Positions 7,287 through 26,020 of a stretch of 64,000 nucleotides of DNA are shown piece after piece. The position numbers and the translations under genes are program-made. Position 1 is the stretch's first letter; each line of letters starts with the position of its first letter. The stretch spans positions 310,001 to 374,000 of the forward strand of contig JAJNBL010000001.1 of the NCBI GenBank assembly GCA_021156175.1. The letters are read 5' to 3'. The notes beneath the pieces are model-generated. The model worked only from the letters and a program-made list of their open reading frames with translations, was not told the DNA's origin and did no database searches. Source of the DNA: Rickettsiales bacterium. GTDB lineage: Bacteria > Pseudomonadota > Alphaproteobacteria > Rickettsiales > JAJNBL01.

Positions 7287-7664
7287 TTAGTGCTTAAGTG
7301 CCGTTGCAAAACACGCCTCGAGACTAATTTCATCAAAAGGCTTCAAAAGCAGCCCATCAAATCCATGTTGTATCGCACCTTCAATTTCACTTTTTTCTGA
7401 CATTGCCGTGCAAAGAATAACTGGCGGGTGGGAAGGCATGCGACGATTCATTTCATCTAAGGTTTCAACTCCATCTAGCCCGGGCATTTTCCAATCCATC
7501 AGGATAACATCAGGCTTATGTTGGGAAAGGTACTCCAATGCCTTGTGGCCGCTATCAAGACACACGGCTTCCATCCCGAAATACACAGGCAAAAAATATT
7601 CCATCGCCATTAAGTTGTCGTGATTATCATCGACTACCAGGCATGTTTTCCCAATATTCTTCAT
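7287..7664 (-). CDS. Single-domain CheY-like response regulator
   Basis: The 125-residue product is a bare receiver domain: acidic pair D12-D13 (LVVDDN), phospho-acceptor D57 in ILMDWKMPGLDG, T86 in LCTAMS and K108 in LLLKPF. There is no output domain, so it must signal by protein contact or in a phosphorelay. The start is placed at the ATG at 7662-7664 because AGGGAG sits six bases before it; frames further upstream lack such a site. It lies 122 bases downstream of the histidine kinase on the same strand and is its most likely partner. The paralogous kinase at 16471-18063 has no adjacent regulator and might use this one too. Confidence 0.88.
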   Translation of the reverse strand: MKNIGKTCLVVDDNHDNLMAMEYFLPVYFGMEAVCLDSGHKALEYLSQHKPDVILMDWKMPGLDGVETLDEMNRRMPSHPPVILCTAMSEKSEIEGAIQHGFDGLLLKPFDEISLEACFATALKH

Positions 7665-7786
7665 ATCCATCTCCCTTGGAAGCAGTGGTTCTGCTAGTAA
7701 ATATTTTACCAATAATTTGTTAATGTATAGTTAATAAATAGAAATAGAGTTAATATATAAACAAATAAAGGATTACAATTACAGGT

Positions 7787-9388
7787 TCACGCATTAGGCT
7801 CGTTAGCCAGGGATAACGGCACTTTGGCCACCCAAAACAAGAAAGTACATCCGGGTTCGCCTTCTGGGTTATTATAAGCCTTAACCTCCCCATTATGGGC
7901 GCGGATGATTTCCCGAGAGATCGAAAGCCCAAGGCCGGTGCCACCGCTTCCGTCATACGTTTTGGACGATTGTACAAACGTCTCGAAAATTTTCTCTTCT
8001 TCGCCCGCCGGAATACCCATTCCCTGGTCTGTGATAGAGACATCAATGGCGTCGATATTGCCATTAAAGAACTTGTGTACTTTCTCCGTCACCCGAATGG
8101 TGATTTGTCCGTTTTCAGGAGAAAATTTGATGGCATTACCCAACAGGTTTGTCACCACCTGAATCATTTTATTCTTGTCGCACGTAATACGAAAGTCAGG
8201 CATATCTCCAGGCTCAAACTTTACCGTAATATTTTTGGGTAACCATTTATGCTGGAGTTCATCGTGGGAGATGCGAAGGATATCGTAGATAAGGCATTCT
8301 TCGTAGTGGAAGTTCATTTTCCCTGCGTTCATTTTACTTAAGTCAAGGATACCTTCGATCAGGTAGTTCAAACGATTTGCAGCCTGATGACATTTTTCAA
8401 AGAAACTGGAATATTGTTTGAGATCGGCTTCTTTTTCCCCTTTAATAGCCCATCCCAGTGCATCTACGCCGAATTTAGAAAACATCTTCATCCCATGAAT
8501 GGGTGTGCGGATTTCATGTGTCATGTTCGAAATCCAGAGATTTTTATCGTCGTTTGCCTTTTCCAGGCGTTCAATGGTGAATTGGAGATCGCGGGTGCGG
8601 TCAGAGACTAAACGTTCCAGGTTTGTGTTGGTATGTCGTAATTGGTTAGTCATTTCTTCAAGTTGTCCCTGTGAGATATCAATCTCATTCATCATGAAAT
8701 TAAAGGAATCAGCAAGTTGTCCTATTTCATCTGTGTATAAGACTTGTGCCCTTGCGGAATAATCACTGTTCTGGGTGATCGAATGTACGGTATTTATCAG
8801 GTTATTGACGGGGCCTGAGATAATTTTCTGGAGTTGTTGGGTTAACGCAAACGCAATCAGGAGGATGACAATCATGAGTATGAAGGTGCCGATAATAATC
8901 TGAATGACATGTTTATTCACCTCCCTCATATCGGCCTTAACGAAGATAGAACCGACTGTTTTTCCATTCACTGCCGTTATTAGCTGATGGACGATAAGAT
9001 AGTCACCTTCCGTATAAATGCCCAGAGTAGGTAAGGTATTAGCGCATGCTATAGAGTCATTCGGGATATAGCTTGCCAAAACACCTCCTGCTTCTTTGTA
9101 AATACAAGCGAGAATGACAGAGGTCTTGCTTTGTAAATCGCGTAAATTTTCTTCCGCCTTTTCTTTATTTTCAGCTCCAATAAACTGCATTCCGGGCGCA
9201 GTTCGTTTTCCAATAATTTCTCCCACCAGCTCGAGCTCATCAATCATTCCTTGCTTCGTTGATTCTATATCGTATTTGAGGAAAGCGATGCAGGCTAATA
9301 TTACAGACATCGAGGTAATAAGCATAACCATCATGGTTAGCTTGAATTTTACAGGCTTATTCAGAAATGCGGTAAGCAGCTTTTTCAT
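7787..9388 (-). CDS. Membrane histidine kinase with CHASE8-like periplasmic domain (module 1)
   Basis: With the start at ATG 9386-9388 the protein has 533 residues. Order: TM1 about 17-38, a roughly 120-residue periplasmic domain resembling the CHASE8/YfiN-type sensor, TM2 about 161-182, HAMP about 183-236, coiled coil, then HisKA with H291 in NMTHEIRTPIHG, and an ATPase domain with N box NLLGNAIKFSP, DQGMGIP and GGTGLGLSI. It has no receiver domain. The kinase half is almost the same as that of the kinase at 16471-18063, while the periplasmic halves differ strongly, so the two probably respond to different inputs. It diverges from a TonB receptor. Alternative in-frame starts up to 9448 (TTG) exist and are less likely. 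Confidence 0.88.
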   Translation of the reverse strand: MKKLLTAFLNKPVKFKLTMMVMLITSMSVILACIAFLKYDIESTKQGMIDELELVGEIIGKRTAPGMQFIGAENKEKAEENLRDLQSKTSVILACIYKEAGGVLASYIPNDSIACANTLPTLGIYTEGDYLIVHQLITAVNGKTVGSIFVKADMREVNKHVIQIIIGTFILMIVILLIAFALTQQLQKIISGPVNNLINTVHSITQNSDYSARAQVLYTDEIGQLADSFNFMMNEIDISQGQLEEMTNQLRHTNTNLERLVSDRTRDLQFTIERLEKANDDKNLWISNMTHEIRTPIHGMKMFSKFGVDALGWAIKGEKEADLKQYSSFFEKCHQAANRLNYLIEGILDLSKMNAGKMNFHYEECLIYDILRISHDELQHKWLPKNITVKFEPGDMPDFRITCDKNKMIQVVTNLLGNAIKFSPENGQITIRVTEKVHKFFNGNIDAIDVSITDQGMGIPAGEEEKIFETFVQSSKTYDGSGGTGLGLSISREIIRAHNGEVKAYNNPEGEPGCTFLFWVAKVPLSLANEPNA

Positions 9389-9477
9389 AAGCATCCATAA
9401 TTCATACATATGGGAACACAATCCCATGTTTTGATTATACCAAAACAAATTAACATCCTGTAAAAGTTAGGTTTTTG

Positions 9478-9496
9478 TTTACGATTATTACGTAAA
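9478..9496. promoter_or_regulatory. Inverted repeat in the divergent kinase/receptor promoter region
   Basis: TTTACG, seven bases, then CGTAAA: a perfect 6-bp inverted repeat in the intergenic space between the module 1 kinase and TonB receptor. A related TTACGT palindrome lies upstream of the module 2 operon (22658) and a half-site upstream of yfiR-like gene 1 (13960). This suggests a common regulator; it was seen by eye only. Confidence 0.35.
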
Positions 9497-9561
9497 GTAT
9501 TCTGTGCCTCAAAGATTTGGTTGATCCAGAAACGTATTAGAAACGGGAAAGGTGTTGTGTT

Positions 9562-11538
9562 ATGAGAGTTCTAGAGAGAATCGCAGCGGTTACCACCATT
9601 CTGACTCTCATATATCCCTCAGCTTCAGTGGCTGCGGAAAGAAAAAAAGACCTATCCCGCCTGCAAGAACTTGCAGATATCAAAGTCACCAGCGTTTCCA
9701 AAAAACCAGAAGATCCTTTTACTGCGGCTGCTGCAGTCTATGTGATTACGCGGGAAGATATAAAACGTTCCGGGGCTACTAGTATTGATGAAGTCCTCCG
9801 GTTGGTTCCGGGAATGGATGTAGCCGTTGCGGGAGCTAACTGGAAAGCTGTATCGGCACGTGGTTTTAATGACAATATTGCTAATAAGCTACTCGTTCTG
9901 ATAGATGGAAGAACCGTTTATAACACCCTCTTTTCCGGTGTCTGGTGGGATGAACAGAACATCTTGATGGAAGATATAAAGCAAATTGAAGTTATTCGAG
10001 GCCCTGGAGCGGCCTTGTGGGGATCGAACGCGGTAAATGGTATTATCAACATCATTACTGAGGATGCAGTAAACACCCTTGATAAGTTAGTCACTATCAC
10101 AGCAGGGAATGAGATGAAAAGTGCTGCAACCCGAGTTGGAGGAAGCCTTTCAGATAATGCGCATTATCGTGTTTATGCCAAATTTACAGATATTGATGAT
10201 TTGAGGGCAATAGGAGGAGGTAGTGCTAAAGATGGCTGGGATACAGGATTATTTGGATTTAGGGTGGATTGGGATAAATCCAGTCAGGATTCCATAACCA
10301 TTCAAGGAAATGGGTACAACAATAACATTAATAGAACAGCAACACTGCCTATTCTTACAGCTCCTTTTGAGCAGGAAATTAATGATGATAGTAATGTCCT
10401 AGGAGGGAATGTCCTATCGCGCTGGACTCATAATCTTTCCGAAGGAGGCAGTACAACATTACAGAGCTATATCGACCATACCGAACGTAATTTCTCTGTT
10501 TCGCGTGAACATAGAAGTATTTTCGATCTCGATTTCCAACATGCACTTGCACCTATTGGTCGTAATGAATTTACATGGGGTGCCGGTTATCGGTTTGTAA
10601 AAGATGAGGAATTATTTAGGCCGTATTTTGCCTATCAACCTGAAAGACGTGAAGACCATCTTTGGAGCTCCTTCCTGCAAAACAAGATTACTCTAGTTCC
10701 AGAAAAATTGTACTTTACCCTTGGTTCAAAGTTTGAATACAATGAATACACGGACTTTGAGGTGCAGCCTAACGCGCGCGCATCATGGCTTATAACTCCA
10801 GATAATACAGTATGGGCATCTGTATCGAAAGCAGTCAGAACACCTAGCAGGGGAGAGCAGGATGTTCAACAGATAGTTGGAGTAGTGCCTATCAGTACTC
10901 CAGGATACGTATCTTTACTCGGTAATAAAAATCAGGACTCCGAAAAGGTTGTAAGTTATGAGATGGGGTATCGTACTCGTCCGCTAAATAAAGTTACCCT
11001 TGATGTAACTACTTTCTATAACGATTATAAAGACCTAAAAACTCTTGAGGCAGAAGCGCCGTTCTCTACGGCTAGCACATTAGTCCCCCTCCGTGCAGCA
11101 AATAATGGAAATGCCTATAGTTATGGTGTAGAAGTTGCTGCTGAATATGCTGTGACCGATTGGTGGAAGCTGTCTGGGGCTTATAGCTTTATCAATCTGG
11201 ATACTGGTTTAGAGCCCAATAGTAGAGATACGTCGCTGGTAGCGGAAGAAACAAAGGCTCCTACGTATCAATTTAATATCCGTTCGCATATGACCTTGTT
11301 AGAGAATATAGAATTTGATAACATGCTATATTATGTCGATGACCTTGAAGTACTAAATATACCGGAATATTATCGGTTTGATTCAAGAATTGCTTGGAAA
11401 CCTCTAAATGGGATTGAATTAAGTCTTGTCGGCCAAAATTTACTCGATGACCATCACCAGGAATTTACGGCCATTCCTATTTTGCCATCGGTAGAAATCG
11501 GGAGAACGGTGTACGGAAAAATTAGTTGGAGGTTCTAA
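9562..11538 (+). CDS. TonB-dependent outer-membrane receptor (module 1)
   Basis: This 658-residue receptor has a signal peptide (cleavage after SVAA, about residue 25), a plug domain (about 45-160) and a 22-strand-type barrel ending in the terminal phenylalanine WRF needed for outer-membrane assembly. The plug carries the subfamily phrases VTSVSKKPEDPF, VYVITREDIKRSGA, LRLVPGMDVA, LLVLIDGRTVYNTLFSGVWWD and IEVIRGPGAALWGSNAVNGIINIIT. In my knowledge of the family this plug type is often found next to YfiR-like proteins and CHASE8 sensors. The ligand is unknown. It is transcribed away from the histidine kinase and is followed directly, without a gap, by an acyltransferase gene. Confidence 0.93.
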   Translation: MRVLERIAAVTTILTLIYPSASVAAERKKDLSRLQELADIKVTSVSKKPEDPFTAAAAVYVITREDIKRSGATSIDEVLRLVPGMDVAVAGANWKAVSARGFNDNIANKLLVLIDGRTVYNTLFSGVWWDEQNILMEDIKQIEVIRGPGAALWGSNAVNGIINIITEDAVNTLDKLVTITAGNEMKSAATRVGGSLSDNAHYRVYAKFTDIDDLRAIGGGSAKDGWDTGLFGFRVDWDKSSQDSITIQGNGYNNNINRTATLPILTAPFEQEINDDSNVLGGNVLSRWTHNLSEGGSTTLQSYIDHTERNFSVSREHRSIFDLDFQHALAPIGRNEFTWGAGYRFVKDEELFRPYFAYQPERREDHLWSSFLQNKITLVPEKLYFTLGSKFEYNEYTDFEVQPNARASWLITPDNTVWASVSKAVRTPSRGEQDVQQIVGVVPISTPGYVSLLGNKNQDSEKVVSYEMGYRTRPLNKVTLDVTTFYNDYKDLKTLEAEAPFSTASTLVPLRAANNGNAYSYGVEVAAEYAVTDWWKLSGAYSFINLDTGLEPNSRDTSLVAEETKAPTYQFNIRSHMTLLENIEFDNMLYYVDDLEVLNIPEYYRFDSRIAWKPLNGIELSLVGQNLLDDHHQEFTAIPILPSVEIGRTVYGKISWRF

Positions 11539-12192
11539 GTGTTGATATCCCCCAACAGTACTGAGCCCGTGCTCCAATACACCTTCACATGTGATCATGT
11601 GCTGCTACGTGAGTATTTTGATATTCGTAAGAGAGTTTATACGGAAACTTTCAATATAGCTGATTTTTCTACCCATGACGATAAGTATGATGATCCTCAA
11701 TACACGGATTTCCTGATTGTTCAGGCTGGGGAAAAGGTTGTAGGAGGTTCCCGCCTTACTTATCACTACAAGGATACCGATATGCGGCTCCCGATGGAGG
11801 ACGATAATTTTATTTTGGAAGATATTTTTCCTTCCATGAGTCTCCGGGACAAAACTTACACAGAAATAACACGAATAGCTGTTTTGCCAGATTATCGAAT
11901 AGGTAGGGAAGTCGGTAAGAAAATGATTGAGTTACAGCTTGTCCAGTCTGTTCAAAAAGGTGCGGAGTATATGTTTGCGGTTACACCGTTAGTGCAAGGA
12001 AGAAACAACCGCATACACTTCCAGCAGCTTGGGTATAAAATGAAAACATGCAATGATGTGGTTGTTCCCGATAAGCCTGCGTACGATGGAAAGAAAATGT
12101 ATTTGGCTATGGCCGATATACACAATAAGTTTCCCGTCGGCTATGAGAAAAATCAACACGATCACAATGCAGCGTCAGCAAACCGCGCGTGA
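11539..12192 (+). CDS. LuxI-fold GNAT acyltransferase (autoinducer-synthase-like)
   Basis: The 217-residue protein starts with GTG directly after the receptor's TAA. A GGAGG lies seven bases upstream inside the receptor gene, so the two are translationally coupled. Its residues line up with the autoinducer synthase pattern: R30-x2-V-Y (LRxxVF), D48-x-Y-D51, R72 in GGSRL, a following phenylalanine, and E109-x2-R112 in EITRIAV. LuxI enzymes use acyl-ACP to acylate S-adenosylmethionine, but related GNATs (PEP-CTERM-associated acyltransferases, N-acyl amino acid synthases) share the pattern. I infer that it makes an N-acylated small molecule. The substrate cannot be called from sequence. Its tight link to the receptor suggests that product and receptor belong together. 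Confidence 0.72.
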   Translation: MLISPNSTEPVLQYTFTCDHVLLREYFDIRKRVYTETFNIADFSTHDDKYDDPQYTDFLIVQAGEKVVGGSRLTYHYKDTDMRLPMEDDNFILEDIFPSMSLRDKTYTEITRIAVLPDYRIGREVGKKMIELQLVQSVQKGAEYMFAVTPLVQGRNNRIHFQQLGYKMKTCNDVVVPDKPAYDGKKMYLAMADIHNKFPVGYEKNQHDHNAASANRA

Positions 12193-12193
12193 G

Positions 12194-13867
12194 CTACGCA
12201 GCTTCCGGTTCTTTCTGTTTCTCGTGCAATAAAAATTCCTTGTTCTCCGCAATAGCATAGCTTCCTGCAAGTCCAGATATCCCATAATGTCCTGGAGATA
12301 GGATATTGTTAGGGTCAATGGCAAGCTTCAGCCGTTGAAGGAAATCTCTATATTCCTCTGAGTCGGAATACACTTTATCCATGGATTGTATTCCCAAACG
12401 GTAGGGCATATAGCCCTCTGCGGCCAATGCTTTGTTCATGGCGTTATAACATTCCATGGCGCGTTGATCCTCGCCCGGTTCTTCGCGGTCATAGATAATT
12501 GCAGACGTGCAGGCGATATTGCGGTCAGACATCATGTTAAAGCCCATATTGGGTTCAAACTGGTACTCTTTGTATGCTGTCTCCAGTATCTCAAGCACTT
12601 TCTTTATGTGTGCCCCTTCAAACGGTATGGAAGGCGAGCACCATATGACTCCACATTTATCCCTATCCAAATCGATCTGGGTGGGTGCCGGTGTTTTTTT
12701 TCTCCAGTAGCAGATATTAAGCTGCTTCTCCATTGGAATACCGAGATAGAGTGAGTTCTGGAAGAAGTAGGCAAGCTCCAGCATATTAACGCCTGTAAGC
12801 CACTGGACGGGCTTGTGGAATATGCGTGCCAAGCGAACGAAATTATTGTCGATAATCACCAGCCTATCTACGGCTTTGCCCAATACTTGTTTCACCCGTT
12901 TTGCACGCGCTTTGCCTTGCGCCTTAGTAGGGGCAATAATGGCGTCATCTCCTACCCATGAGTTGCCCATAAGCGCTCGGTTGCGGAATGCTTCAATATA
13001 CCCTTCTGGCAGCTCATTCTTCCCTTTTTCCCAAGGGAATTGCTGCTTCATAGCCAGAACCCGATAATCATTCGATAGGGTCGAGGTCGTGTTCAATGTG
13101 CCTTCCAAGCGTAGCTGCCTTAATGCCTCTATGGTTTTCTCCAATTGGGCATTATCCTTGACCGTATAGAAGAATATTTGGAAATACTTTGGTTTTGGGA
13201 CAAGCCAGAAGGTCATTTTAGTGACGATTCCGTAGTTGGATTGGGTAAAGATGCCATCAATACTCGGGCCTACTCCCCATCGATATACATGCTGGGAGTG
13301 GCAATTGTCATTACCCCCAAACCCTGTCCGGATACATTCACCCGTCGGTAATATGATCTCCATATTGCAGGAGTGCTGGAAACGATCTCCGTAGATGCCT
13401 TTCCCGATGCCGCGTTCAAGCGCATTACCGACAAGGCTGGCCTGGGGAGTTGAGCCTATAGAGGGAGGGGTGAGGCTGGATTGCTTCTCATTCAGGAAAT
13501 CATAAACCTGCTGGAAACTAACGCCTGGCTCAACGGTAATATAAGCCAATTTTTCGTTATATTCGAGGATGGCATTCATCCGTTCCAGAGAGATTATTGC
13601 GCATTGGTCTGACGCTGGAACGCGAGAACCATAGCCCCAGTTTTTCCCCTTACTTATCGGATAAATAGGGACTTTATAACGGTTGGCAACCCGAAGACAG
13701 GCCTGGATTTGCGTTTTATTTTGGGGGAATAATACGGCTATGACACGGTTCGATGTGTTAAAGGTAGCATTTTCACATTGGGAAAGGGTCGTACCATCCG
13801 TGGATACTCCTTTCGATCCAAGCACGTCTTGCCAGGCATTGAGAGCTTCTGATATGTGTAATGCCAT
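12194..13867 (-). CDS. VAO/PCMH-type FAD-linked oxidase (4-cresol dehydrogenase-like)
   Basis: With the ATG at 13865-13867 the protein has 557 residues. The N-terminal FAD_binding_4 domain (about 45-260) contains PISKGKNWGYGSRVP, LERMNAILEYNEKLAYITVEPGVSFQQVYDFL and YGDRFQHSCNMEIILPTGE. The C-terminal half matches the substrate domain of the vanillyl-alcohol oxidase/p-cresol methylhydroxylase group and ends near IDPNNILSPGHYG. These enzymes oxidise para-substituted phenols or similar alcohols. No cytochrome partner is adjacent, so it may use oxygen. Its TAG lies one base from the TGA of the LuxI-like gene, a convergent arrangement. A GTG at 13891 is an alternative start. A role in tailoring a module 1 compound is speculative. 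Confidence 0.82.
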   Translation of the reverse strand: MALHISEALNAWQDVLGSKGVSTDGTTLSQCENATFNTSNRVIAVLFPQNKTQIQACLRVANRYKVPIYPISKGKNWGYGSRVPASDQCAIISLERMNAILEYNEKLAYITVEPGVSFQQVYDFLNEKQSSLTPPSIGSTPQASLVGNALERGIGKGIYGDRFQHSCNMEIILPTGECIRTGFGGNDNCHSQHVYRWGVGPSIDGIFTQSNYGIVTKMTFWLVPKPKYFQIFFYTVKDNAQLEKTIEALRQLRLEGTLNTTSTLSNDYRVLAMKQQFPWEKGKNELPEGYIEAFRNRALMGNSWVGDDAIIAPTKAQGKARAKRVKQVLGKAVDRLVIIDNNFVRLARIFHKPVQWLTGVNMLELAYFFQNSLYLGIPMEKQLNICYWRKKTPAPTQIDLDRDKCGVIWCSPSIPFEGAHIKKVLEILETAYKEYQFEPNMGFNMMSDRNIACTSAIIYDREEPGEDQRAMECYNAMNKALAAEGYMPYRLGIQSMDKVYSDSEEYRDFLQRLKLAIDPNNILSPGHYGISGLAGSYAIAENKEFLLHEKQKEPEAA

Positions 13868-14085
13868 TGTAACTCGTGAATTTAAACCCACAGGTGATAC
13901 TTAAAGTATCGTATTTTGATCTACTAAGCTATTGCTACTTTACAGTTATATTAATCATGTTACGTAGAATAAATATGTTAATTAGTAAAGAGAAATCTTA
14001 GAAAGAAGTGGAAATTCTGGATATTAGGGGGCTTGCTAATTCAATTTTTAGAAGAATATTAATCCTTCCAGTCCAGTATGTCGGT

Positions 14086-14655
14086 ATGGAGAAATTCAGG
14101 CTAAATAGCGTTTTACTGACGTTAACGTTAGGGTGCATAACGTACCTATTTGCCTGGAATACTGTCTACGGACAAGTAGATGAAAGTGTAGTGAAAGCCC
14201 AGTGGATTAACGATCTGATCCCGTACATGAAGTGGAAAGGCAAAAGAGATAGCGCATTAACTATTTGTACGGTCGGTCGTGAGCCTGTCCATATCCACCT
14301 GAAAGATATTATCCAGAAAGACGAACAAGAAGCTAAAAGCAAAGGGGAGCCCTTATCTCCTTTATATGTTGTACGTAAAAATGCGAATGACCCCGATAAT
14401 TTTAGCGAGTGTAACGTGCTTTATATCAGCGCTTCAGAACAGAAGGCCAATATCGATGATATGCTTAAGAAAGTGAAGGGAAAGCAGATTTTGACGATTA
14501 GCAACCTCACAGATTTTGCAGAAAATGGAGGGATTGTAGGCTTCGTCATCAAAAATGGTGGCGTGAAAATTCACATCAACGAGAAATCCGCTGCGGAATC
14601 AAATATCATTATCGATAGCGATTTACTTGGGTTTGCCAAGACGTTTTATAAGTAA
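14086..14655 (+). CDS. YfiR/DUF4154 family periplasmic protein (module 1)
   Basis: Starting at ATG 14086 the protein has 189 residues with a signal peptide (LLTLTLGCITYLFAWNTVYG). The mature part follows the YfiR pattern: VVKAQWINDLIPYMKWKG, ALTICTVGREP, CNVLYISASEQ, ILTISNLTDFAENGGIVGFVIKNGGVKIHIN and the final segment with SNIIIDSDLL. YfiR (DUF4154) proteins are periplasmic and, in the YfiBNR system, hold the CHASE8-containing enzyme YfiN inactive. Here the likely partner is the module 1 kinase. The gene is separated from the receptor by the oppositely oriented oxidase, unlike module 2 where the order is compact. A GTG start at 14008 would put extra residues before the signal peptide, so I rejected it. 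Confidence 0.82.
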   Translation: MEKFRLNSVLLTLTLGCITYLFAWNTVYGQVDESVVKAQWINDLIPYMKWKGKRDSALTICTVGREPVHIHLKDIIQKDEQEAKSKGEPLSPLYVVRKNANDPDNFSECNVLYISASEQKANIDDMLKKVKGKQILTISNLTDFAENGGIVGFVIKNGGVKIHINEKSAAESNIIIDSDLLGFAKTFYK

Positions 14656-15117
14656 TAGGTTTGTTTTATCTCAAAAACAAGATTCGTCGCATTGAATTTC
14701 TCATTTCTTTATTTCCCCTCGATCTTCTCAATCAACTGTTCTACGCATTGATCGGCGGCCGTCTAAGGATTCTTTGATTAATTGTCCGTCATTGGCAATA
14801 AGTTTTTGTAGGTCAAATGCGTAGCAAGCTCGTTAGGGTATGTTATAGAGCAACGCATCTTCAGTATCATTCCTCAGGGTCGAGACGCCCAAATCGGTGG
14901 TGTATTTCAGGCCTGTTACGCCTGAAAAAACACCAACAGGCCAGCGTTTAAATGATTACATTCTAATCTGGATAAGCATAATCCCTGGTTTGCTGGTTAA
15001 GGGACAATCTTAAACATCACTTCTATAGCCCTCTCAACAGCTAACAGGATTAATAATCACCCTTCATAAACTACTGTCGACACCAATAAATCTTAAAGCT
15101 AAAAAAGATGTAAATAC
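14656..15117. other. Gene-poor stretch with a possible decayed gene
   Basis: About 460 bases without an intact gene. The minus strand over roughly 14710-14910 translates in pieces such as LKYTTDLGVSTLRNDTEDALL and VEQLIEKIEGK, broken by stops and shifts, which looks like a decayed coding sequence of unknown family. It also contains the inverted repeat listed at 14899-14934. I see nothing else before the iron-permease promoter. Confidence 0.35.
14899..14934. repeat. Inverted repeat / hairpin
   Basis: GGTGT-A-TTTCAGGC, a 7-base loop, then GCCTGAAA-AA-ACACC: two matched arm segments (8 bp and 5 bp) with a small bulge. It has no T tract directly after it on either strand, so it is not a standard terminator. 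It might be a remnant of a mobile-element end. Confidence 0.45.
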
Positions 15118-15151
15118 TTGACACCAAGGTCGCGAATGATTATTAATATCG
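15118..15151 (+). promoter_or_regulatory. Promoter with overlapping Fur-like box for the FTR1 iron permease
   Basis: A consensus -35 TTGACA (15118-15123), a 17-base spacer and TATTAA (15141-15146) form a strong sigma-70-type promoter. Overlapping the -10, TGATTATTAATATCG (15137-15151) matches 11 of 14 defined positions of the 7-1-7 Fur box TGATAATnATTATCA. Iron-dependent repression of the permease is the natural inference. Confidence 0.6.
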
Positions 15152-15256
15152 ATAGTATATTGAAAATAACTCATAACTGTTTCCATCCTAAAGGGAATTC
15201 TGCATCACCAGGTCACGTCAGGATTAAAATACGAAATCTTTTTCTAGGAGCTTATT

Positions 15257-16096
15257 ATGCTTGCAACACTAATTATCGTATTTCGTGAGATGATTGAAGC
15301 TGGGTTAATTATCGGCATTGTCCTAGCGGCTACTCGTGGTGTTCCTAAGCGTAGTCTTTGGGTGGGATATGGTATTCTGGGAGGGATCGCAGGTGCTTGT
15401 ACAGTCGCTGCTTTCGCCAGTTCAATTAACGCGGCAATGGAAGGAGTTGGGCAGGAATTATTCAATGTGGGTATATTGCTGATCGCTGTGTTAATGCTTA
15501 CGTGGCATAATGTTTGGATGGCACGGCATGGGCGTGAGATGGCAGCTGAAATGAAAGCCGTAGGCGAGGCTGTTGCGACAGGTCGCCGCTCCCTGTTGGC
15601 GCTCTCGATTGTCGTAGGTATTGCCGTTTTACGCGAAGGTGCGGAAATCGTACTATTTCTTTACGGCATTGCCATATCAGGAGGTGACTCGACCACAGCG
15701 ATGGCAATGGGTGGCGCACTCGGTCTCGCACTTGGTGGTATCGGTGCGGCTTTAATCTATTTTGGGCTGTTACGCATTCCAACACGTTATTTATTTAGGA
15801 CAACAAGCTGGCTTATTGCATTATTGGCCGCAGGTATGGCAGCACAAGCTATTGCCCTTCTCCAACAGGCGCAAGTTATAACAATGCTCACTCAGGTGAT
15901 GTGGGATTCGTCAGATTTCATAGCCAATGGCAGTGTTACCGGAAAAGCGCTACGTACGTTGATTGGCTATACCGCCAGACCAACCGCAATCCAGTTAATG
16001 GTTTATGCTGCAACACTGGCGATCATCTTTACCCTTATGAAATTATTCGGCCATACACCGGCTGGGCAAAAGGTCGCCGTATTAAGTAAAGCATAA
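15257..16096 (+). CDS. FTR1 family iron permease
   Basis: The 279-residue, seven-helix membrane protein carries both REXXE iron-binding motifs of the FTR1/EfeU family: REMIE in the first helix (residues 10-14) and REGAE in the fourth (LREGAEIVLFLYGIA). FTR1 proteins move ferric ions, or ferrous ions after coupled oxidation, across the inner membrane. AGGAG lies eight bases before the ATG. There is no efeO or efeB partner next to it. It lies between two TonB-receptor modules and has a Fur-like box, suggesting that the surrounding block is concerned with iron or responds to it. Confidence 0.92.
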   Translation: MLATLIIVFREMIEAGLIIGIVLAATRGVPKRSLWVGYGILGGIAGACTVAAFASSINAAMEGVGQELFNVGILLIAVLMLTWHNVWMARHGREMAAEMKAVGEAVATGRRSLLALSIVVGIAVLREGAEIVLFLYGIAISGGDSTTAMAMGGALGLALGGIGAALIYFGLLRIPTRYLFRTTSWLIALLAAGMAAQAIALLQQAQVITMLTQVMWDSSDFIANGSVTGKALRTLIGYTARPTAIQLMVYAATLAIIFTLMKLFGHTPAGQKVAVLSKA

Positions 16097-16177
16097 ACCG
16101 ATAGGGAAGAATGGCTGTATAAATAGCAAAAGCACATGGCTTATGATTCGTTTTCCTTTAATTGATAGGAGGGAAAT

Positions 16178-16441
16178 GTGACCTGGATGGTTTATATCCT
16201 AGAATGCTCAGACGGCAGTTTATACACGGGAATTACCAATAGTATAGAACGCCGAATTTCAGAGCATGAGGCAGGGCTTGGCGCTAAATACACCCGAGGG
16301 CGTGCTCCTTTTACGCTTGTGTATCAGGAATCGTTAGAGAATCGATCACAGGCTTCTAAACGGGAGATAGAAATCAAATCTTATTCCCGAAAAGATAAAA
16401 TGTTCCTTATAGAAGCAGGGAAGAACGTACTAGCGGTATAA
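16178..16441 (+). CDS. GIY-YIG nuclease-domain protein, YhbQ/UPF0213-like
   Basis: The 87-residue product is a stand-alone GIY-YIG domain: VYILECSDGSLYTGIT supplies the GIY...YIG-like strands, RRISEHEAG the catalytic arginine region, YTRGRAPFTLVY the family centre, and E in SKREIEIK is the metal-binding glutamate. Such small proteins are common and their function is unclear, perhaps DNA repair or RNA processing. The start is GTG at 16178, preceded by AGGAGGG. Confidence 0.88.
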   Translation: MTWMVYILECSDGSLYTGITNSIERRISEHEAGLGAKYTRGRAPFTLVYQESLENRSQASKREIEIKSYSRKDKMFLIEAGKNVLAV

Positions 16442-16470
16442 GTTACCCATCTGACAGGGGGAAATTTTGC

Positions 16471-18063
16471 TTACGCTGCATCACCGATGCTATCACCTTC
16501 CTGCCCCTTTGAAAATGATGCTTTCGCCACCCAGAACATAAACGTACATCCTGGCTCTCCATTTGGGTTATTCTGCGCCTTAATTTCTCCGTTATGCGCA
16601 CGCACAATTTCCCGGGCAATCGAAAGCCCCAAACCTGTTCCACCGCTTCCATCATACGTAGTGGATGACTGCACAAACGTATCGAAAATCTTTTCTTCTT
16701 CCCCTGGTGGAATGCCAGGTCCCCGGTCTTTAATCGAGACATCCACACTTTCCACAACACCATTAAAATACCGGTGGGCTTTTTCTTCTACATGAATCGT
16801 AATAACACTATTATTTGGAGTGAATTTGATGGCGTTACACAACACATTCGTTACCACCTGGATCAGCTTATTCTTATCGCAGGTCAGCTCTATTTCTGGC
16901 GGGTTCTCAGGTTCAAATTTCACGGTAATATTCTTAGGTTCCCACTTATGCTGCAGCTCATCATGTGAAATCCGAAGAATATCGAGCATCGAACATTGCT
17001 GATAACGAAAATTCATTTTCCCTGCATTCATTTTGCTCAAATCCAAAATACCTTCAATCAGGTAGTTGAGGCGGTTCGCAGCCTGTTGGCAACGCTCAAA
17101 GAAACTGACATATTGCTGGAGGTCCACCTCTTTTTTCCCTTCAATCGCCGCCTTCACTGAATCGACACCAAATTTGGAAAATGATTTCATTCCATGAATT
17201 GGTGTCCGGATTTCGTGGGTCATGTTCGAAATCCAGATATTCTTATCCTCATTCGCTTTCTCGAGCCGCTGGATCGTAAATTTCAGATCACGGGTGCGCT
17301 CAGAGACAAGCCGCTCAAGATTCGCGTTCGTATGACGTAACTGATCCGTAATTTTTTCAAGTTGCCGATGGGAAGCATCGATTTCTTCCATCATGAAGTT
17401 AAAGGAATCCGCCAGCTGCCCGATTTCGTCATCTAAAAACTTCTGAGCACGCGCACTAAAATCATCATCCTCAATGATTCTCTCTGTCGCTTTTACAAGA
17501 CTGGTAATGGGTAAGATAATATTGCGCTGATATTTGGAGGATACCAAAAACGCCAACACTACGCTTGGCAATAAGAGAAGAAAAGCGAACAAAAGATAGG
17601 TTGGTATGGAATCCGCGATATCCCTTAAATCCGATTCAATATAAATATACCCCTCGGTTTCGTCCTGGAAGGTAATGTCTTGGTAAATAGTAACTTTAAG
17701 GATCCCTACAATCTCTTTTAAGGTGACGGGGCACTCACTATGCGTATTGGTTTTATATTTGGCATAAATCTCTTTGTTTTTATTGTAAATACAAGCAAGC
17801 GATATCGAAGATTTCACTTTCAAATCATCCAGACTTTCTTGTGCCATTTCGTGATCTTCCCAGGATAAAGCAGGAGCAACCCGGTTGGCGATGATATTGG
17901 ATACAAGCGTAAGTTCTTTGATTAAAGAGGCACGGGAAGAATAGGCGCCGTAAATGAAGAATACACAAAGTGACATCACGAGTATGGCGCAACTGGTCAC
18001 CATCCCCATCGCCATAAGCTGTTTTTTGACAGAATATTTCATCGTCCTGTCATTCATTGCCAT
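16471..18063 (-). CDS. Membrane histidine kinase with CHASE8-like periplasmic domain (module 2)
   Basis: This 530-residue kinase is last in the module 2 operon. Order: TM1 about 19-40, periplasmic domain about 42-153, TM2 about 154-174, HAMP, coiled coil, HisKA with H283 in NMTHEIRTPIHG, and an ATPase domain with NVLCNAIKFTP, DRGPGIP and GGTGLGLSI. From HAMP onward it is nearly the same as the kinase at 7787-9388; the periplasmic parts share only the pattern. Its ATG overlaps the stop of the yfiR-like gene by one base (TAATG), so the sensor and YfiR are made together. There is no receiver or regulator beside it. Confidence 0.92.
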   Translation of the reverse strand: MAMNDRTMKYSVKKQLMAMGMVTSCAILVMSLCVFFIYGAYSSRASLIKELTLVSNIIANRVAPALSWEDHEMAQESLDDLKVKSSISLACIYNKNKEIYAKYKTNTHSECPVTLKEIVGILKVTIYQDITFQDETEGYIYIESDLRDIADSIPTYLLFAFLLLLPSVVLAFLVSSKYQRNIILPITSLVKATERIIEDDDFSARAQKFLDDEIGQLADSFNFMMEEIDASHRQLEKITDQLRHTNANLERLVSERTRDLKFTIQRLEKANEDKNIWISNMTHEIRTPIHGMKSFSKFGVDSVKAAIEGKKEVDLQQYVSFFERCQQAANRLNYLIEGILDLSKMNAGKMNFRYQQCSMLDILRISHDELQHKWEPKNITVKFEPENPPEIELTCDKNKLIQVVTNVLCNAIKFTPNNSVITIHVEEKAHRYFNGVVESVDVSIKDRGPGIPPGEEEKIFDTFVQSSTTYDGSGGTGLGLSIAREIVRAHNGEIKAQNNPNGEPGCTFMFWVAKASFSKGQEGDSIGDAA

Positions 18064-18593
18064 TACTCAACCACTTTAATCATTTCCAACAGGGCAGAAT
18101 TAATATTGATATTGCTCGCTCGTGCATTAGTATAATTCAGTTCAACACTTACCTTATTGCCCGATTTTATAGAAAATTGGAACATCCCACCTCTTCGCAA
18201 GAAACCTTCTATATCACTGACCGTAACAATAGAACGTTGCTGAGAAACAGCCAGAATATCTTCAAGGTTCGCCTTTGCACCATTTGCCAAAAAAAGCATA
18301 TGGCATGATTTTACGTCATTAACGCTCACATTACGCAAAACACGATATTTCTCTTGGTTCCCTTTCGCAAGATCCTCCAGGTACTTTCCCACCGTAGTCG
18401 TAGGATCTTTGTTAGATTCCCCCATCGAGCATAATACCAATTTCCCCTGCGTTTCCCAACGGATAAATTTGGCTATTTTGTAAAAGAAAACGGCCTTTAC
18501 CTCATTCTCCGAGAATTCTTGAGAGAATCCATTGGAAGGAATGAGCAAAAGCATCATGATGCCAAGAATGAGACGTATTTTGATATAACGCAT
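18063..18593 (-). CDS. YfiR/DUF4154 family periplasmic protein (module 2)
   Basis: The 176-residue product has a signal peptide (LILGIMMLLLIPSNGFSQ) and a complete YfiR-like domain: NEVKAVFFYKIAKFIRWE, KLVLCSMGES, SCHMLFLANGAKANLEDIL, IVTVSDIEGFLRRGGMFQF and NINSALLEMIKVV. It lies two bases after the receptor stop and overlaps the kinase start. In the known YfiBNR system the homologue binds the periplasmic domain of YfiN and blocks it; here the only candidate target is the kinase encoded next. Confidence 0.9.
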   Translation of the reverse strand: MRYIKIRLILGIMMLLLIPSNGFSQEFSENEVKAVFFYKIAKFIRWETQGKLVLCSMGESNKDPTTTVGKYLEDLAKGNQEKYRVLRNVSVNDVKSCHMLFLANGAKANLEDILAVSQQRSIVTVSDIEGFLRRGGMFQFSIKSGNKVSVELNYTNARASNININSALLEMIKVVE

Positions 18594-18595
18594 GG

Positions 18596-20548
18596 TTAGA
18601 ATCGTACCGTAACCATACCATAAACGTTACGCTCTATCTCATTGCGTACTCCATGTAGCGCTTGAGAAAACTCGGGGTGAGCACTATCAAAAAGATTTTG
18701 CCCAACAAGACTAAGCTCAAGCCCCTGCTTCGGTTTCCAGGCAACCCTGGTATCAAAGCGTAAATAGGCCGGGATATCGACAAGCGGTGCCGAGAGGTTA
18801 TCCACATAATAAAGGCTGTTGCTCCACTCTATATCGTAAGGGAGATAGAGCAATGAACGTATATTAAACTGATTCTTCGGTGAATTACCTTCAATCTGTT
18901 CTACCACGCTATCAGTACTATTATCCATTTTATCCACATCCATTTGCAAGAATGTGTACGCAGCTTTAAGCGTCCAATAGTCAGTAACACTCCAATCGGA
19001 AGCTATTTCAAATCCATAGCTTTGTGCTTTCGCTTTATTATCAAACTCTAACCCCACAATCGTATCTGCCGGAACAGATCGAGCACTTAACTCATTTGTG
19101 CGCAAATCATTATAGTCATTCACGAAAAAGGTGGTATCAAACACCACGCTTTTCGTTGGCTTAAGCCGATAACCCAGCTCATAGGCCATCAGTTTTTCGG
19201 ATTCAAAATCCCGATTTCCTAACCATCGTATATAACCAGGCAAGATGACAAGGGAGAGATCATCTTCAGAACGGTTAGGAGTACGCACAGAACGCGATAC
19301 CGAAGCCCATACTGTTTGGTTCTGCGTCGGATACCACCCAACACGGGCAGATGGTTGATATTCAAATCCGGTAAAATCATTATGCTCAAACTTTGAGCCC
19401 AAGGTGATATGGAGTTTGTCCGGCACAAGCTTATAAGTATCTTGCGCAAACATACTATAAAGGCTGCGCTCCCGGCTGGTAGGCGCATAGGAAATCAGGT
19501 CAGAACCACGCAATTCATCGGTAATATACCGGTAACCTGCCCCAACGACCGCAATATGACGATCGCCTAACGGCTGGGTATATTGATAATCAGCATCCAT
19601 AGTATAATTGTCTTGCGCTAACAGGCTGTAATGCGAAGACGCCGCATCATAATAAAGCTTAGTAACGCTTTGCCCGTCATTTTCATGGTTATGTTCCCAT
19701 TTTGTCAGGAAATTCCCACCAAATGCGCGCAAATCATCATCCTGAGCTGTCGCATTGGGCAAGTAAAGACTTAAATTCTGATGGTTTTCGTAAAGGTCTC
19801 CCTGGAATGTAAGGTTGTCCTCATCGACAGGCTTCCAGTCAACCCTAAATCCGGTGCGGTTCGCATCCCAATCATTTCCGCCATCTGTACCGAATACCGT
19901 TTTGCTGGAATCCATGTCAGAGCGCTTCCCGTACATACGGTAATACATATTATTGTTAATGGTGCCACCGTAGCGCGCTTCCCCAAAAGCTTTTGTTTCC
20001 TTACCAACACCAACGCTTGCTACCGTTGTTTGAGTATCTTTTGCACTTTTGGTAATGATGTTGATCACACCATTAACGGCATTCGCCCCCCAAAGTGATG
20101 CACCCGGACCACGTATCACCTCGATACGCTCAATATCCTCCAGCATTACATCCTGGACATCCCAATACACGCCCGAGAATAATGGGGTATAGACAGTTCT
20201 TCCGTCAATCAACACCAACAGCTTGTTTCCAAAACCATCGCTGTTAAAACCACGGGACGTATTTGCCCATACTTTAGGGTCCGATTGAGCAATTTGCAAT
20301 CCAGGAACCATGCGTAAGAGCTCTGGAATAGAACGCATCCCGGAATGTCTTATATCCTCCTGGGAGATCACATAAATTGCACCCGGCGCTTGGAATGCCT
20401 GTTCCGGCCGCTTTGATACGGACGTGACCACATCCCCTAAATCTTCGAAAGATAGGTTGGAGAGTTCCTTGAGATTATCGCTTGCAAACGCTTGGGAACT
20501 TAATGCACAGAGGCACAATAGCCCATATGCAATAGGATTATATTTCAT
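18596..20548 (-). CDS. TonB-dependent outer-membrane receptor (module 2)
   Basis: With the ATG at 20546-20548 (GGAGGGG seven bases upstream) the receptor has 650 residues. It has a signal peptide ending AFA, a plug with VTSVSKRPEQAFQAPGAIYVISQEDIRHSGM, LLVLIDGRTVYTPLFSGVYWD and IEVIRGPGASLWGANAVNGVINIIT, and a barrel that ends in VRF. It is a paralogue of the module 1 receptor with a diverged barrel, so a different but related ligand is likely. It is the second gene of the operon, 24 bases after the GNAT/decarboxylase fusion. Confidence 0.93.
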   Translation of the reverse strand: MKYNPIAYGLLCLCALSSQAFASDNLKELSNLSFEDLGDVVTSVSKRPEQAFQAPGAIYVISQEDIRHSGMRSIPELLRMVPGLQIAQSDPKVWANTSRGFNSDGFGNKLLVLIDGRTVYTPLFSGVYWDVQDVMLEDIERIEVIRGPGASLWGANAVNGVINIITKSAKDTQTTVASVGVGKETKAFGEARYGGTINNNMYYRMYGKRSDMDSSKTVFGTDGGNDWDANRTGFRVDWKPVDEDNLTFQGDLYENHQNLSLYLPNATAQDDDLRAFGGNFLTKWEHNHENDGQSVTKLYYDAASSHYSLLAQDNYTMDADYQYTQPLGDRHIAVVGAGYRYITDELRGSDLISYAPTSRERSLYSMFAQDTYKLVPDKLHITLGSKFEHNDFTGFEYQPSARVGWYPTQNQTVWASVSRSVRTPNRSEDDLSLVILPGYIRWLGNRDFESEKLMAYELGYRLKPTKSVVFDTTFFVNDYNDLRTNELSARSVPADTIVGLEFDNKAKAQSYGFEIASDWSVTDYWTLKAAYTFLQMDVDKMDNSTDSVVEQIEGNSPKNQFNIRSLLYLPYDIEWSNSLYYVDNLSAPLVDIPAYLRFDTRVAWKPKQGLELSLVGQNLFDSAHPEFSQALHGVRNEIERNVYGMVTVRF

Positions 20549-20572
20549 TCTGGACCCCTCCATTTAGAAAAC

Positions 20573-22591
20573 TCAGTCTACCCGTTCTAAGGCTCTCTGG
20601 TGTAGCGATACTTGTTCTGCTAACGCCTGCTGAAGATCACAGATAAATGCATCGACAACATCTTTCGTAACATGCGGCATTGTAATGATATGCGCCAAGT
20701 CTCGATTTACTGAGAGCTGCCATTTTTTATAAACGCTAGCAGGAGGAGTAGCAAGCACTACAACATTAGAATACGGATTTCGGAGTACCTTCGGGTAATC
20801 CATCGCTTTTAGGCGCATAACGGTATATTCCGCAACCTCCATACAATCGGCGGCCAGTCGGCTTAATCCTCTTTCTCCACCTAATGCTAGAAGACGTTTA
20901 TACGCAAATAACGCCGAGTGCCCATTCCGGGAGCAGGAGAGCGTATGGGTCTTTGTTCCATTATAATGCGTTTTCACAAGATTATCCGGAAGCGCATCAA
21001 GGCCTGCCTTTCTTCCTAAAAACACCGCCGAAGGGAACGGCACGCCCAAAAACTTATGAAGGCTGATGGAAACGGAATGAATTGGAAGATCAAATCCACT
21101 ATGGGATGCACCTGTTAAAAAGGGCAAGAAACCACCATGCAAGGCAGCATCGCAGTGAATATAAAAATCTTTCTTTCCTAGTTTATTAAGGATATCAACA
21201 ACCGTCCTCACACTATCGATCGCCCCTTTCATAGTGGTTCCGATATTAAGTACAATCACAGCAGGAGTATCTGTTTGCGCAATTTTCTGCTCAAATACCG
21301 CGTAATCAATCTCCCCATGAGCAAGCGAAGGGATTTCGCACAACGGCATCTTCAATTTATCCGCACATACCCTCACTGAATAATGACTATCGGTGGATGC
21401 ATAAAGTGTGGCAGAAGGATAATTCGTTCGTCCCAGATACAAGCCCATTTCATTAGCTTCCGTACCGCCCGAGGCGATATATCCCCACACTTCTTTCAAA
21501 GGGAGAGAGTAGTGGTTTGCAAAAAAATTGAGTACTGCTTTTTCCTGCTCACGCGCATGAATCTGGTAGTTTGAATGATTTTCTGGATCACCCGCATTAT
21601 TAATGTGGAAATCCAGATAGTTACCCCACTGACTATACTGAAAATCCAGATTATGGGGGAAGCCCAATTGCATTTGCGATGATTCTGTATAATGGGAGGT
21701 ATCATCAACGGATAGCGGAGGGAAAGTCGCCCCTACCCGTTGAATTGCACCCGAAAGAGCATTTCCAATACCCGGCAAAGCATTCTGCTTAAAGTCAATA
21801 TGTGCGAATCGTGGGTCGCTATTATAGGGAACAACAATCTCATGAATAGTCCAACCGGATGCAGCAAAAAGCTTTTGGCTTCCAGGATTGGTCGCTTCTC
21901 CATAAAAATAGCGGAAGCCCCTGCCCTTAAGGTATTCCTCAAATTGCCTAAAACTAAACTGGGCCACCCCAATCCCGTCTTCATTTTTAAGGGTCAGGTA
22001 TTTTCCCATGAAACCGATGAAGAAGCCCCGATAGACATAACCCGGTTCAAGCGGGCACTGTTCTTTACGTAAAATATCGAGCAACTTTTCTTTCGACTGG
22101 TCCAGGAAATCAAACACTGGTTGGAATTTTTGTCGGTTCGGGAGGTGCTCAAACGCATCTTCCGCATTATCTTTAATAAAATCCCTGCCAATGATGCCGC
22201 CAATCACCTGGCCTGTTTCCTCATTAATCAGCACAAGGGAAACATCGTCTTTCCGGGCATATTCTAAATACAGTACGATTTCGTCGTAAAACTCTTCTTC
22301 CGTTAAATTCACGGCTTTGGTCGTAGGCTCACGATCTACAAATGTTTTGGCCATGACCCTCGCAAGGGCCTGGTGTTCCTCGCGATTTTCCGTGTCAAGC
22401 TTACGGATATGAATACGTACCATTTTGCCATTTGTCGTCATTCCATTAAAAGAGGCTGGCAACGGAGTGGCTAACGCGCTTGAAGGGGAACCAAGTGGAG
22501 ACGATAATATGCATTCCTTTTTGCCCAACCTAGAAATGGTTGTATCGTTCGACGCATTACTTTCTGGACAGATATTGGAAATTGTATACAT
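20573..22591 (-). CDS. Fusion of GNAT acyltransferase and histidine-decarboxylase-type PLP enzyme
   Basis: This 672-residue protein joins two enzymes. Residues about 57-265 are a GNAT-like acyltransferase (VSLVLINEETGQVIGGIIG, then GEATNPGSQKLFAASGW). Residues about 290-650 match bacterial PLP histidine decarboxylases: GGTEAN (375-380), H403 stacking on PLP, NIGTTMKGAIDS, D481 in HCDAALHGG, the PLP lysine K513 in SLHKFLG, and SRNGHSALF. The first 50 residues are a Ser-rich extension with no known domain. A decarboxylase fused to an acyltransferase would turn an amino acid into an amine and acylate it, for example to an N-acyl histamine; the real substrate is unknown. It is first in the module 2 operon. 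The start has a strong AGGGAGAG site. Confidence 0.85.
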   Translation of the reverse strand: MYTISNICPESNASNDTTISRLGKKECILSSPLGSPSSALATPLPASFNGMTTNGKMVRIHIRKLDTENREEHQALARVMAKTFVDREPTTKAVNLTEEEFYDEIVLYLEYARKDDVSLVLINEETGQVIGGIIGRDFIKDNAEDAFEHLPNRQKFQPVFDFLDQSKEKLLDILRKEQCPLEPGYVYRGFFIGFMGKYLTLKNEDGIGVAQFSFRQFEEYLKGRGFRYFYGEATNPGSQKLFAASGWTIHEIVVPYNSDPRFAHIDFKQNALPGIGNALSGAIQRVGATFPPLSVDDTSHYTESSQMQLGFPHNLDFQYSQWGNYLDFHINNAGDPENHSNYQIHAREQEKAVLNFFANHYSLPLKEVWGYIASGGTEANEMGLYLGRTNYPSATLYASTDSHYSVRVCADKLKMPLCEIPSLAHGEIDYAVFEQKIAQTDTPAVIVLNIGTTMKGAIDSVRTVVDILNKLGKKDFYIHCDAALHGGFLPFLTGASHSGFDLPIHSVSISLHKFLGVPFPSAVFLGRKAGLDALPDNLVKTHYNGTKTHTLSCSRNGHSALFAYKRLLALGGERGLSRLAADCMEVAEYTVMRLKAMDYPKVLRNPYSNVVVLATPPASVYKKWQLSVNRDLAHIITMPHVTKDVVDAFICDLQQALAEQVSLHQRALERVD

Positions 22592-25177: not shown

Positions 25178-26017
25178 TTATTTAATGCACCGGATTTGAA
25201 CTGTGAACTGATTCGCATACTGCTCCAGATTTGCATCCGGCAAATACCCGGCTTCGCGAAGCGAAAGATAATAACGTATCTTGTAGTAATCCAAAAATGC
25301 GCGAAGCCTAGCAAGATGCACCGCTGAACCATTGGTGAAATGTTCGGTTGCCACGACCTCCGTTTTTCCATCCAGCTCGGCTAAGGTGGTTTCCTCGATT
25401 TCTCGGAACCCCTCAATCACGCCAATCACATTCCCATATTCATCGAGCAAGGGTCCGCCACTATTGCCTTTTCGCACCGTATCGGTAAGTACAATCTTCC
25501 GTTCTGTGAAAGGTTGGTCAAGCTCCGGAGGTCCATGATCCGTACGCTCATCCGGATTAAGCACACTTCCCTTCTTAAACGCATACGCACCGCCCGGATA
25601 CCCAATCACAGAGACAGGCGCACCTGCTTTCACCCCTTCCATATGCGCACGCAATACCGCGATATTTTTCGGAGGATGTTCGGAAACGAGGACTGCCAGA
25701 TCGTTATATTTATCGGTCGCAAGAACGTTCAACGTCGTGCGCAAATTTTTAGGCTCTACCACCGTGAAAGACTTACAGTCCTGCACCACATGCTGATTCG
25801 TGATGACATGTTTTTCATTCACAAAAAACCCGGTGCCGAACCCCAAATTAATAACGCGGCCTGTATCGGAAACAACGTCTGGAGAAGTCGGACTTAAGGG
25901 AGTAATAGGAGTCAGCGGAGAAAGAAACTTTTCTTGTATGGACTGCCGTTCCTGCCAAAAAAGGAATGAAAGTACCAGGACCACAAAGAACGGGATAAGA
26001 CGTGTAAGGAACTGCAT
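25178..26017 (-). CDS. Secreted or membrane-anchored trypsin-like serine protease (copy A)
   Basis: The 279-residue protein has an N-terminal hydrophobic segment (about 6-21, signal anchor), a Pro-rich linker (LSPLTPITPLSPTSP) and a chymotrypsin-fold protease with an intact triad: H76 in ITNQHVV, D106 in YNDLAVL and S186 in KGNSGGPL. It has no PDZ domain, so it is not a full DegP. It would act in the periplasm. It is the second of two adjacent homologues, three bases after copy B, in one operon. Confidence 0.88.
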   Translation of the reverse strand: MQFLTRLIPFFVVLVLSFLFWQERQSIQEKFLSPLTPITPLSPTSPDVVSDTGRVINLGFGTGFFVNEKHVITNQHVVQDCKSFTVVEPKNLRTTLNVLATDKYNDLAVLVSEHPPKNIAVLRAHMEGVKAGAPVSVIGYPGGAYAFKKGSVLNPDERTDHGPPELDQPFTERKIVLTDTVRKGNSGGPLLDEYGNVIGVIEGFREIEETTLAELDGKTEVVATEHFTNGSAVHLARLRAFLDYYKIRYYLSLREAGYLPDANLEQYANQFTVQIRCIK

Positions 26018-26020
26018 TCT

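Follow-up and report, generated by a model that had tools for sequence, protein, structure and literature searches.

The window, a stretch of 64 kb from the 2.0-Mb genome of a Rickettsiales bacterium whose lineage branches deeply from that of Rickettsia, holds two sets of genes that each consist of a TonB-dependent receptor, a YfiR-like periplasmic protein, and a membrane histidine kinase (Table 1). Both sets had been recognized in a sequence-only reading of this DNA, and open reading frames and family scans confirm every gene of both. In module 1, kinase 1 and receptor 1 are divergently transcribed, and the gene for a putative N-acyltransferase starts at the next base after the stop codon of receptor 1, leaving a gap of 0 bp. 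Module 2 is a single four-gene operon on the minus strand, as that reading had also described, with 9 bp between the fusion gene and receptor 2, 2 bp between receptor 2 and YfiR 2, and a TAATG overlap joining the stop codon of YfiR 2 to the start of kinase 2. The whole genome encodes two proteins of the YfiR family (PF13689), both in the window, three plug-domain receptors, two of them in the window, and one TonB protein.

The response regulator next to kinase 1 is likely to be the output of the pathway, and the FAD-binding oxidase is a possible tailoring enzyme, while the FTR1 iron permease is probably not a member of the circuit. Elsewhere in the window, two trypsin-like protease genes are found in tandem (25178-26815), adjoining a gene for sigma-54 (26965-28524).

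Table 1. Genes of the two modules and their neighbors, with the evidence for each assignment
Feature	Position	Strand	Evidence and remarks
Response regulator, single-domain	7287-7712	-	Pfam Response_reg 90.3 bits; 74 bp downstream of kinase 1
Kinase 1: membrane histidine kinase with CHASE8-like sensor, HAMP, HisKA, HATPase	7787-9448	-	NF053592 163 bits, cut-off 194
Receptor 1: TonB-dependent receptor, TOL_0244 family	9562-11538	+	NF053590 648.7 bits, cut-off 645
FeeM/LuxI-fold N-acyltransferase, putative signal synthase	11539-12192	+	PF13444 22.9 vs 22.4 bits; fold; linkage
FAD-binding oxidase, GlcD-like	12194-13891	-	PF01565 86.9 bits; convergent with acyltransferase
YfiR 1: YfiR-like periplasmic protein	14008-14655	+	PF13689 93.2 bits, cut-off 24.9
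FTR1 iron permease, between modules 1 and 2	15257-16096	+	PF03239 114.5 bits
Kinase 2: CHASE8 histidine kinase	16471-18063	-	CHASE8 42.9 bits, cut-off 27
YfiR 2: YfiR-like periplasmic protein	18063-18593	-	PF13689 98.3 bits, cut-off 24.9
Receptor 2: TonB-dependent receptor, TOL_0244 family	18596-20563	-	NF053590 648.6 bits, cut-off 645
Fusion: probable GNAT (about residues 36-296) and PLP histidine-type decarboxylase (about 300-657)	20573-22591	-	PRK02769; weak PF00583

Fold and family of the acyltransferase

The acyltransferase encoded beside receptor 1 scores just above the cut-offs of the GNAT families PF13444 and PF00583, and just below that of the Pfam family FeeM (PF21926), with 22.7 bits against a gathering score of 27. 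Among 23 relatives, 10 match PF21926 at E <= 0.01, the best of them at 1.7e-10. The AF2 model built from these 23 relatives is confident (mean pLDDT 89.4), and its best structural match is FeeM (VIA Z 18.7 over 173 residues), with AHL synthases scoring about 15. AHL synthases are also returned by a profile search of the PDB, in an alignment that spans the conserved N-terminal R, D, and GG-R region, and the near-invariant positions of the acyltransferase include R30, D51, G69, G70, and E109. A marginal OlsB-type match is found in one of the 23 members. The LuxI fold first read into this protein holds, with FeeM as the closest structure, and the model points to a putative N-acyltransferase of the FeeM/LuxI fold. 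With FeeM-type N-acyl amino acid synthases it has fold and size in common, and the family matches of its relatives range from sub-threshold to clear. The products of FeeM-type enzymes also include surfactants and membrane lipids.

As in LuxI/LuxR quorum sensing, a LuxI-like fold is combined here with a synthase gene lying beside that of the presumed receptor. However, none of the 23 members matches the LuxI family of Pfam at E <= 0.01, and no LuxR autoinducer-binding protein (PF03472) was found in the window genome, two results on which a LuxI/LuxR system was rejected; sensing, moreover, would take place at the outer membrane. Synthases of N-acyl amino acids are also known to be linked to PEP-CTERM/exosortase genes, according to work cited in PMC7293339, whereas the partner in the present case is a TonB receptor-kinase set. 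This assignment was discarded because the window genome has no match to the exosortase family (PF09721) and TIGR03694 gives 29.3 bits against a cut-off of 111.95.

Linkage of receptor and acyltransferase in the order

Within this order, a FeeM/LuxI-fold synthase is genuinely paired with a TonB receptor-YfiR-kinase set. Across 263 genomes of the order of the window, the receptor (E <= 1e-60) is present in 62, the acyltransferase (E <= 1e-8) in 52, and both in 47 (odds ratio 123, p 6e-33), figures to be read with the facts that the Fisher test counts related genomes as independent and that the acyltransferase profile, built from receptor-linked copies, may favor detection in receptor-bearing genomes. 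Counting by genus, which eases the effect of kinship and does not remove it, gives 41, 32, and 30 of 122, respectively. When the sample is restricted to the 196 genomes with a completeness of 90% or more and a contamination of 5% or less, the numbers become 39, 33, and 32. The control, FTR1, occurs in 114 of the 263 genomes and is weakly associated with the receptor (odds ratio 2.6).

The two genes are also physically close. The acyltransferase, mostly present as a single copy per genome, lies within 10 kb of the receptor in 37 of the 47 genomes, where about 0.7 would be expected by random placement, and enzyme and receptor are apart in about 10. Among those 37, it is located upstream on the same strand in 28, and downstream in the others, on the same strand in five and on the other strand in four; the median gap is 215 bp. 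This arrangement exceeds chance, and the pairing is very probably maintained by selection in this order. The enzyme-receptor neighborhoods proposed from the single locus are thereby strongly supported for the acyltransferase. At a further locus (L263:7579-10400), an acyltransferase is accompanied by a kinase and a MarR gene; no receptor was found in that genome (G040, 86% complete).

Presence of the enzyme is predicted by receptor type. In a tree of 69 receptors, one clade of 12, with moderate support (81), has no linked acyltransferase. Five genomes (G005, G016, G042, G063, and G160) combine one receptor of this clade with one from elsewhere in the tree, and each of the five has its acyltransferase beside the latter. 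Genomes whose receptors fall mainly in the 12-receptor clade or the small f29 clade have the enzyme in 0 of 8 cases, against 47 of 54 among the rest (p 2e-6), in a grouping picked post hoc, after the tree had been seen. In agreement with the proposed pairing, the distances among receptors are correlated with those among enzymes in a set of 36 linked pairs (Mantel r 0.58, 0/2000 permutations), a correlation that could also arise from common species descent. In the f24 clade, made up of six genomes, receptor and enzyme occupy separate sites and the enzyme is kept in all six; its loci with the acyltransferase far from the receptor are L049, L056, L072, L079, L083, and L086.

Several kinds of modifying enzyme recur near the receptor or the acyltransferase. 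LCM-type carboxyl methyltransferases are found there in eight loci, mostly adjoining the acyltransferase, P450s in five, and fatty-acid desaturases in four. A homologue of the FAD-oxidase of the window adjoins the acyltransferase and receptor in one locus (L057), and one LCM methyltransferase locus (L257) has no receptor nearby. The recurrence of methyltransferase, P450, desaturase, and FAD-oxidase is in keeping with a small pathway that yields a modified fatty-acyl compound. N-acyl alanine methyl esters, for which no synthase or receptor is known, have been described from Roseovarius tolerans (PMC11580390), and their link to the present circuit is one that we infer.

The decarboxylase fusion, the kinases, and the receptor triad

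In module 2, the enzyme upstream of the receptor is of another kind. The decarboxylase half of the fusion scores 365.8 bits with PRK02769 (cut-off 305) and retains the S-x-x-HK motif, which includes the PLP lysine. It is closest to the histidine decarboxylases of Vibrio anguillarum siderophore plasmids and of Acinetobacter, the nearest structures being Ser/Ala and His decarboxylases, and histidine is a candidate substrate. The N-terminal half is probably a GNAT acyltransferase, with a sub-threshold match to PF00583 (14.4 bits, cut-off 20.7); the AF2 model of the fusion is of low confidence (pLDDT 59.9), and the matches of a fold search with it were taken up by decarboxylases.

Among the genomes searched, the GNAT half has one relative, a stand-alone protein that is 48% identical (G047, locus L080). 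Its gene stands in one group with those of an acyltransferase and a methyltransferase, immediately upstream of a receptor orthologous to receptor 2 (64% identical). No homologue of the GNAT half was found in 349 genomes of the phylum or in the plasmids searched, and decarboxylase homologues elsewhere in the order do not adjoin receptors. In the 69-receptor tree, all the receptors that group with receptor 2 are linked to the acyltransferase. Together with the single case of G047, this suggests that the fusion may have replaced, or joined, the usual enzyme in the window genome. The idea that each module is tied to an acyltransferase of its own is borne out for receptor 1 and holds less well for the pairing of the fusion with receptor 2, which has one relative, that of G047.

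The kinases, described at first as near-identical in their kinase domains, are 75% identical over the HAMP and kinase half and 30% over the sensor half. Since codon agreement at identical residues is as low as 48%, they are regarded as the product of an old duplication, and a recent one was ruled out. The similarity of the two has been preserved in the signaling half, which is consistent with, without proving, a response regulator common to both. As for the CHASE8 domain attributed to the two of them, it is found in kinase 2, whereas the score of kinase 1 (23.5 bits) stays under the cut-off of 27.

Receptors 1 and 2 match solely plug and barrel domains in Pfam, and the same scan gave no match to an N-terminal signaling (STN) domain in either. 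Both exceed the cut-off of NF053590. The YfiR proteins (64.8 and 67.5 bits) are under the NF053591 cut-off of 125, and the kinases (163 and 165.7 bits) under the NF053592 cut-off of 194, so that by their scores they are related to these curated equivalogs but stand outside them. The receptor-YfiR-kinase set by itself was known before, being already modeled in NCBIfam as the TOL_0244/TOL_0243 triad (NF053590-NF053592), with which the window shares the gene order receptor-YfiR-kinase and, below the cut-offs, the companion-model matches.

The same triad recurs in neighborhoods from other classes and phyla, among them Verrucomicrobia, Nitrospinota, Nitrospirota, Planctomycetota, Desulfobacterales, and Acidobacteria. 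No acyltransferase was found in the triad loci fetched from outside the order, the sole match (L184) belonging to a genome of the order itself (G023). The triad is thus ancient and widely distributed, and its combination with a synthase has the look of an innovation made in this order. That the triad works elsewhere without the enzyme implies a different ancestral ligand for the receptor family. We know of no signal for this triad in any of the many phyla that have it.

Some loci hold further genes beside the triad. A MarR-type regulator, which may be the transcriptional output in these relatives, follows the kinase in 11 receptor-YfiR-kinase loci (L086:13014-13472 and ten more). In the loci of family f15 (L093:8082-8438, L271, and others), YfiR is followed by an Hpt phosphotransfer protein, and a larger, divergent gene (about 950 aa) encodes the kinase.

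A proposed circuit and its alternatives

With slightly more confidence than doubt, we read receptor 1 and the acyltransferase as a synthase-receptor pair that senses a self-made acylated molecule, with YfiR relaying the signal to the kinase. The acyltransferase would couple an amine or amino acid to a fatty-acyl chain supplied by acyl-ACP or acyl-CoA, and the product would in some relatives probably be tailored by a carboxyl methyltransferase, P450, desaturase, or FAD-oxidase. The molecule would then exit the cell, and the TonB receptor would bind it at the outer membrane. The bound receptor would alter the state of periplasmic YfiR, which otherwise would restrain the CHASE8 kinase, and the freed kinase would phosphorylate a response regulator, with the one adjoining kinase 1 as the output. 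Module 2 would be a paralogous circuit in which the decarboxylase-GNAT fusion leads to an N-acylated amine, for example acyl-histamine, and both modules may feed one regulator, because their kinase halves are alike. Against this reading speak the occurrence of the triad elsewhere without the enzyme, the surfactants and membrane lipids that FeeM-type enzymes are also known to produce, the separation of enzyme and receptor in about 10 of the 47 genomes, and the single relative behind the module 2 pairing.

The relay is modeled on the YfiBNR system of Pseudomonas aeruginosa, in which YfiR holds a CHASE8 protein in check and is itself sequestered from the side of the outer membrane (PMC2837407, PMC4887326); in the same way, a TonB receptor that binds its ligand would release the kinase from YfiR. 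The two systems have in common a periplasmic protein of the YfiR type and a sensor protein with CHASE8 (PMC2837407, PMC3375315), but the lipoprotein YfiB is replaced here by a TonB receptor, and the diguanylate cyclase YfiN by a histidine kinase. Membership in YfiBNR was rejected on the output domain, since both kinases carry HisKA and HATPase and no GGDEF. The sensing of a self-made small molecule by a TonB receptor is known from FpvA-FpvR, where the molecule is pyoverdine (PMC4256889, PMC5733041). That receptor, in contrast to those of the window, has an N-terminal signaling domain, and its relay consists of an anti-sigma and a sigma factor instead of YfiR and a kinase. The circuit had been put forward as one not known as described: its self-made ligand read through a TonB receptor has a precedent in FpvA, but no description of a synthase combined with a TonB receptor-YfiR-kinase set was found in the literature searched, so that, to our knowledge, the parts are known and the combination is new.

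Other explanations have been weighed against the same data. The FTR1 permease between the modules, the likeness of the decarboxylase to those of Vibrio anguillarum siderophore plasmids and Acinetobacter, and the presence of one TonB protein in the genome would all suit enzymes that make a metallophore or scavenging lipid, imported by the receptor with its cargo, while YfiR and the kinase report uptake and no signal passes from cell to cell. This would be akin to siderophore self-regulation, and TonB receptors mostly import metal complexes. It is nevertheless a rather unlikely account: the locus showed no genes of the NRPS, hydroxamate, or catechol kind, the association of FTR1 with the receptor is weak, and a product of the FeeM type, with its one acyl chain, does not suggest itself as a chelator.

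A role of the acyltransferase in aminolipid synthesis or outer-membrane modification, with the triad sensing the envelope state or an external ligand and the enzyme being an output or a neighbor with a shared role, is improbable. OlsB-type lipid acyltransferases, which belong to PF13444, do have the same fold. A role in envelope-stress signaling is also known for YfiR in YfiBNR (PMC4887326). However, FeeM is the best structure match, the OlsB-type match is confined to that one marginal case, and dependence on receptor type is unexpected for a general lipid enzyme. An accident of rearrangement, or free-living lineages keeping more genes of all kinds, could also bring the genes together, and receptor-bearing genomes are often larger and the FTR1 association is slightly positive too. 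The contrast between odds ratios of 123 and 2.6, the 37 of 47 linked genomes against 0.7 expected, and the several different arrangements that keep receptor and acyltransferase together make this very improbable, and largely refute it for the acyltransferase only, not for the GNAT-decarboxylase.

Rickettsiales are best known for intracellular parasites, and the literature on their origins that was checked makes no mention of quorum sensing or TonB. It is quite possible, if a little short of probable, that the environmental members of this order have a further acyl-signal architecture, leading from a FeeM/LuxI-fold synthase to a dedicated TonB receptor, YfiR, and a kinase, in which tailoring enzymes and receptor lineages co-diversify. 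If the synthase-receptor reading is true, TonB receptors could detect acyl-type signals at the outer membrane, as opposed to intracellular detection by LuxR, and the receptor-YfiR-kinase triad of many phyla would gain its first ligand class. This ligand becomes testable because its maker is encoded beside the receptor.
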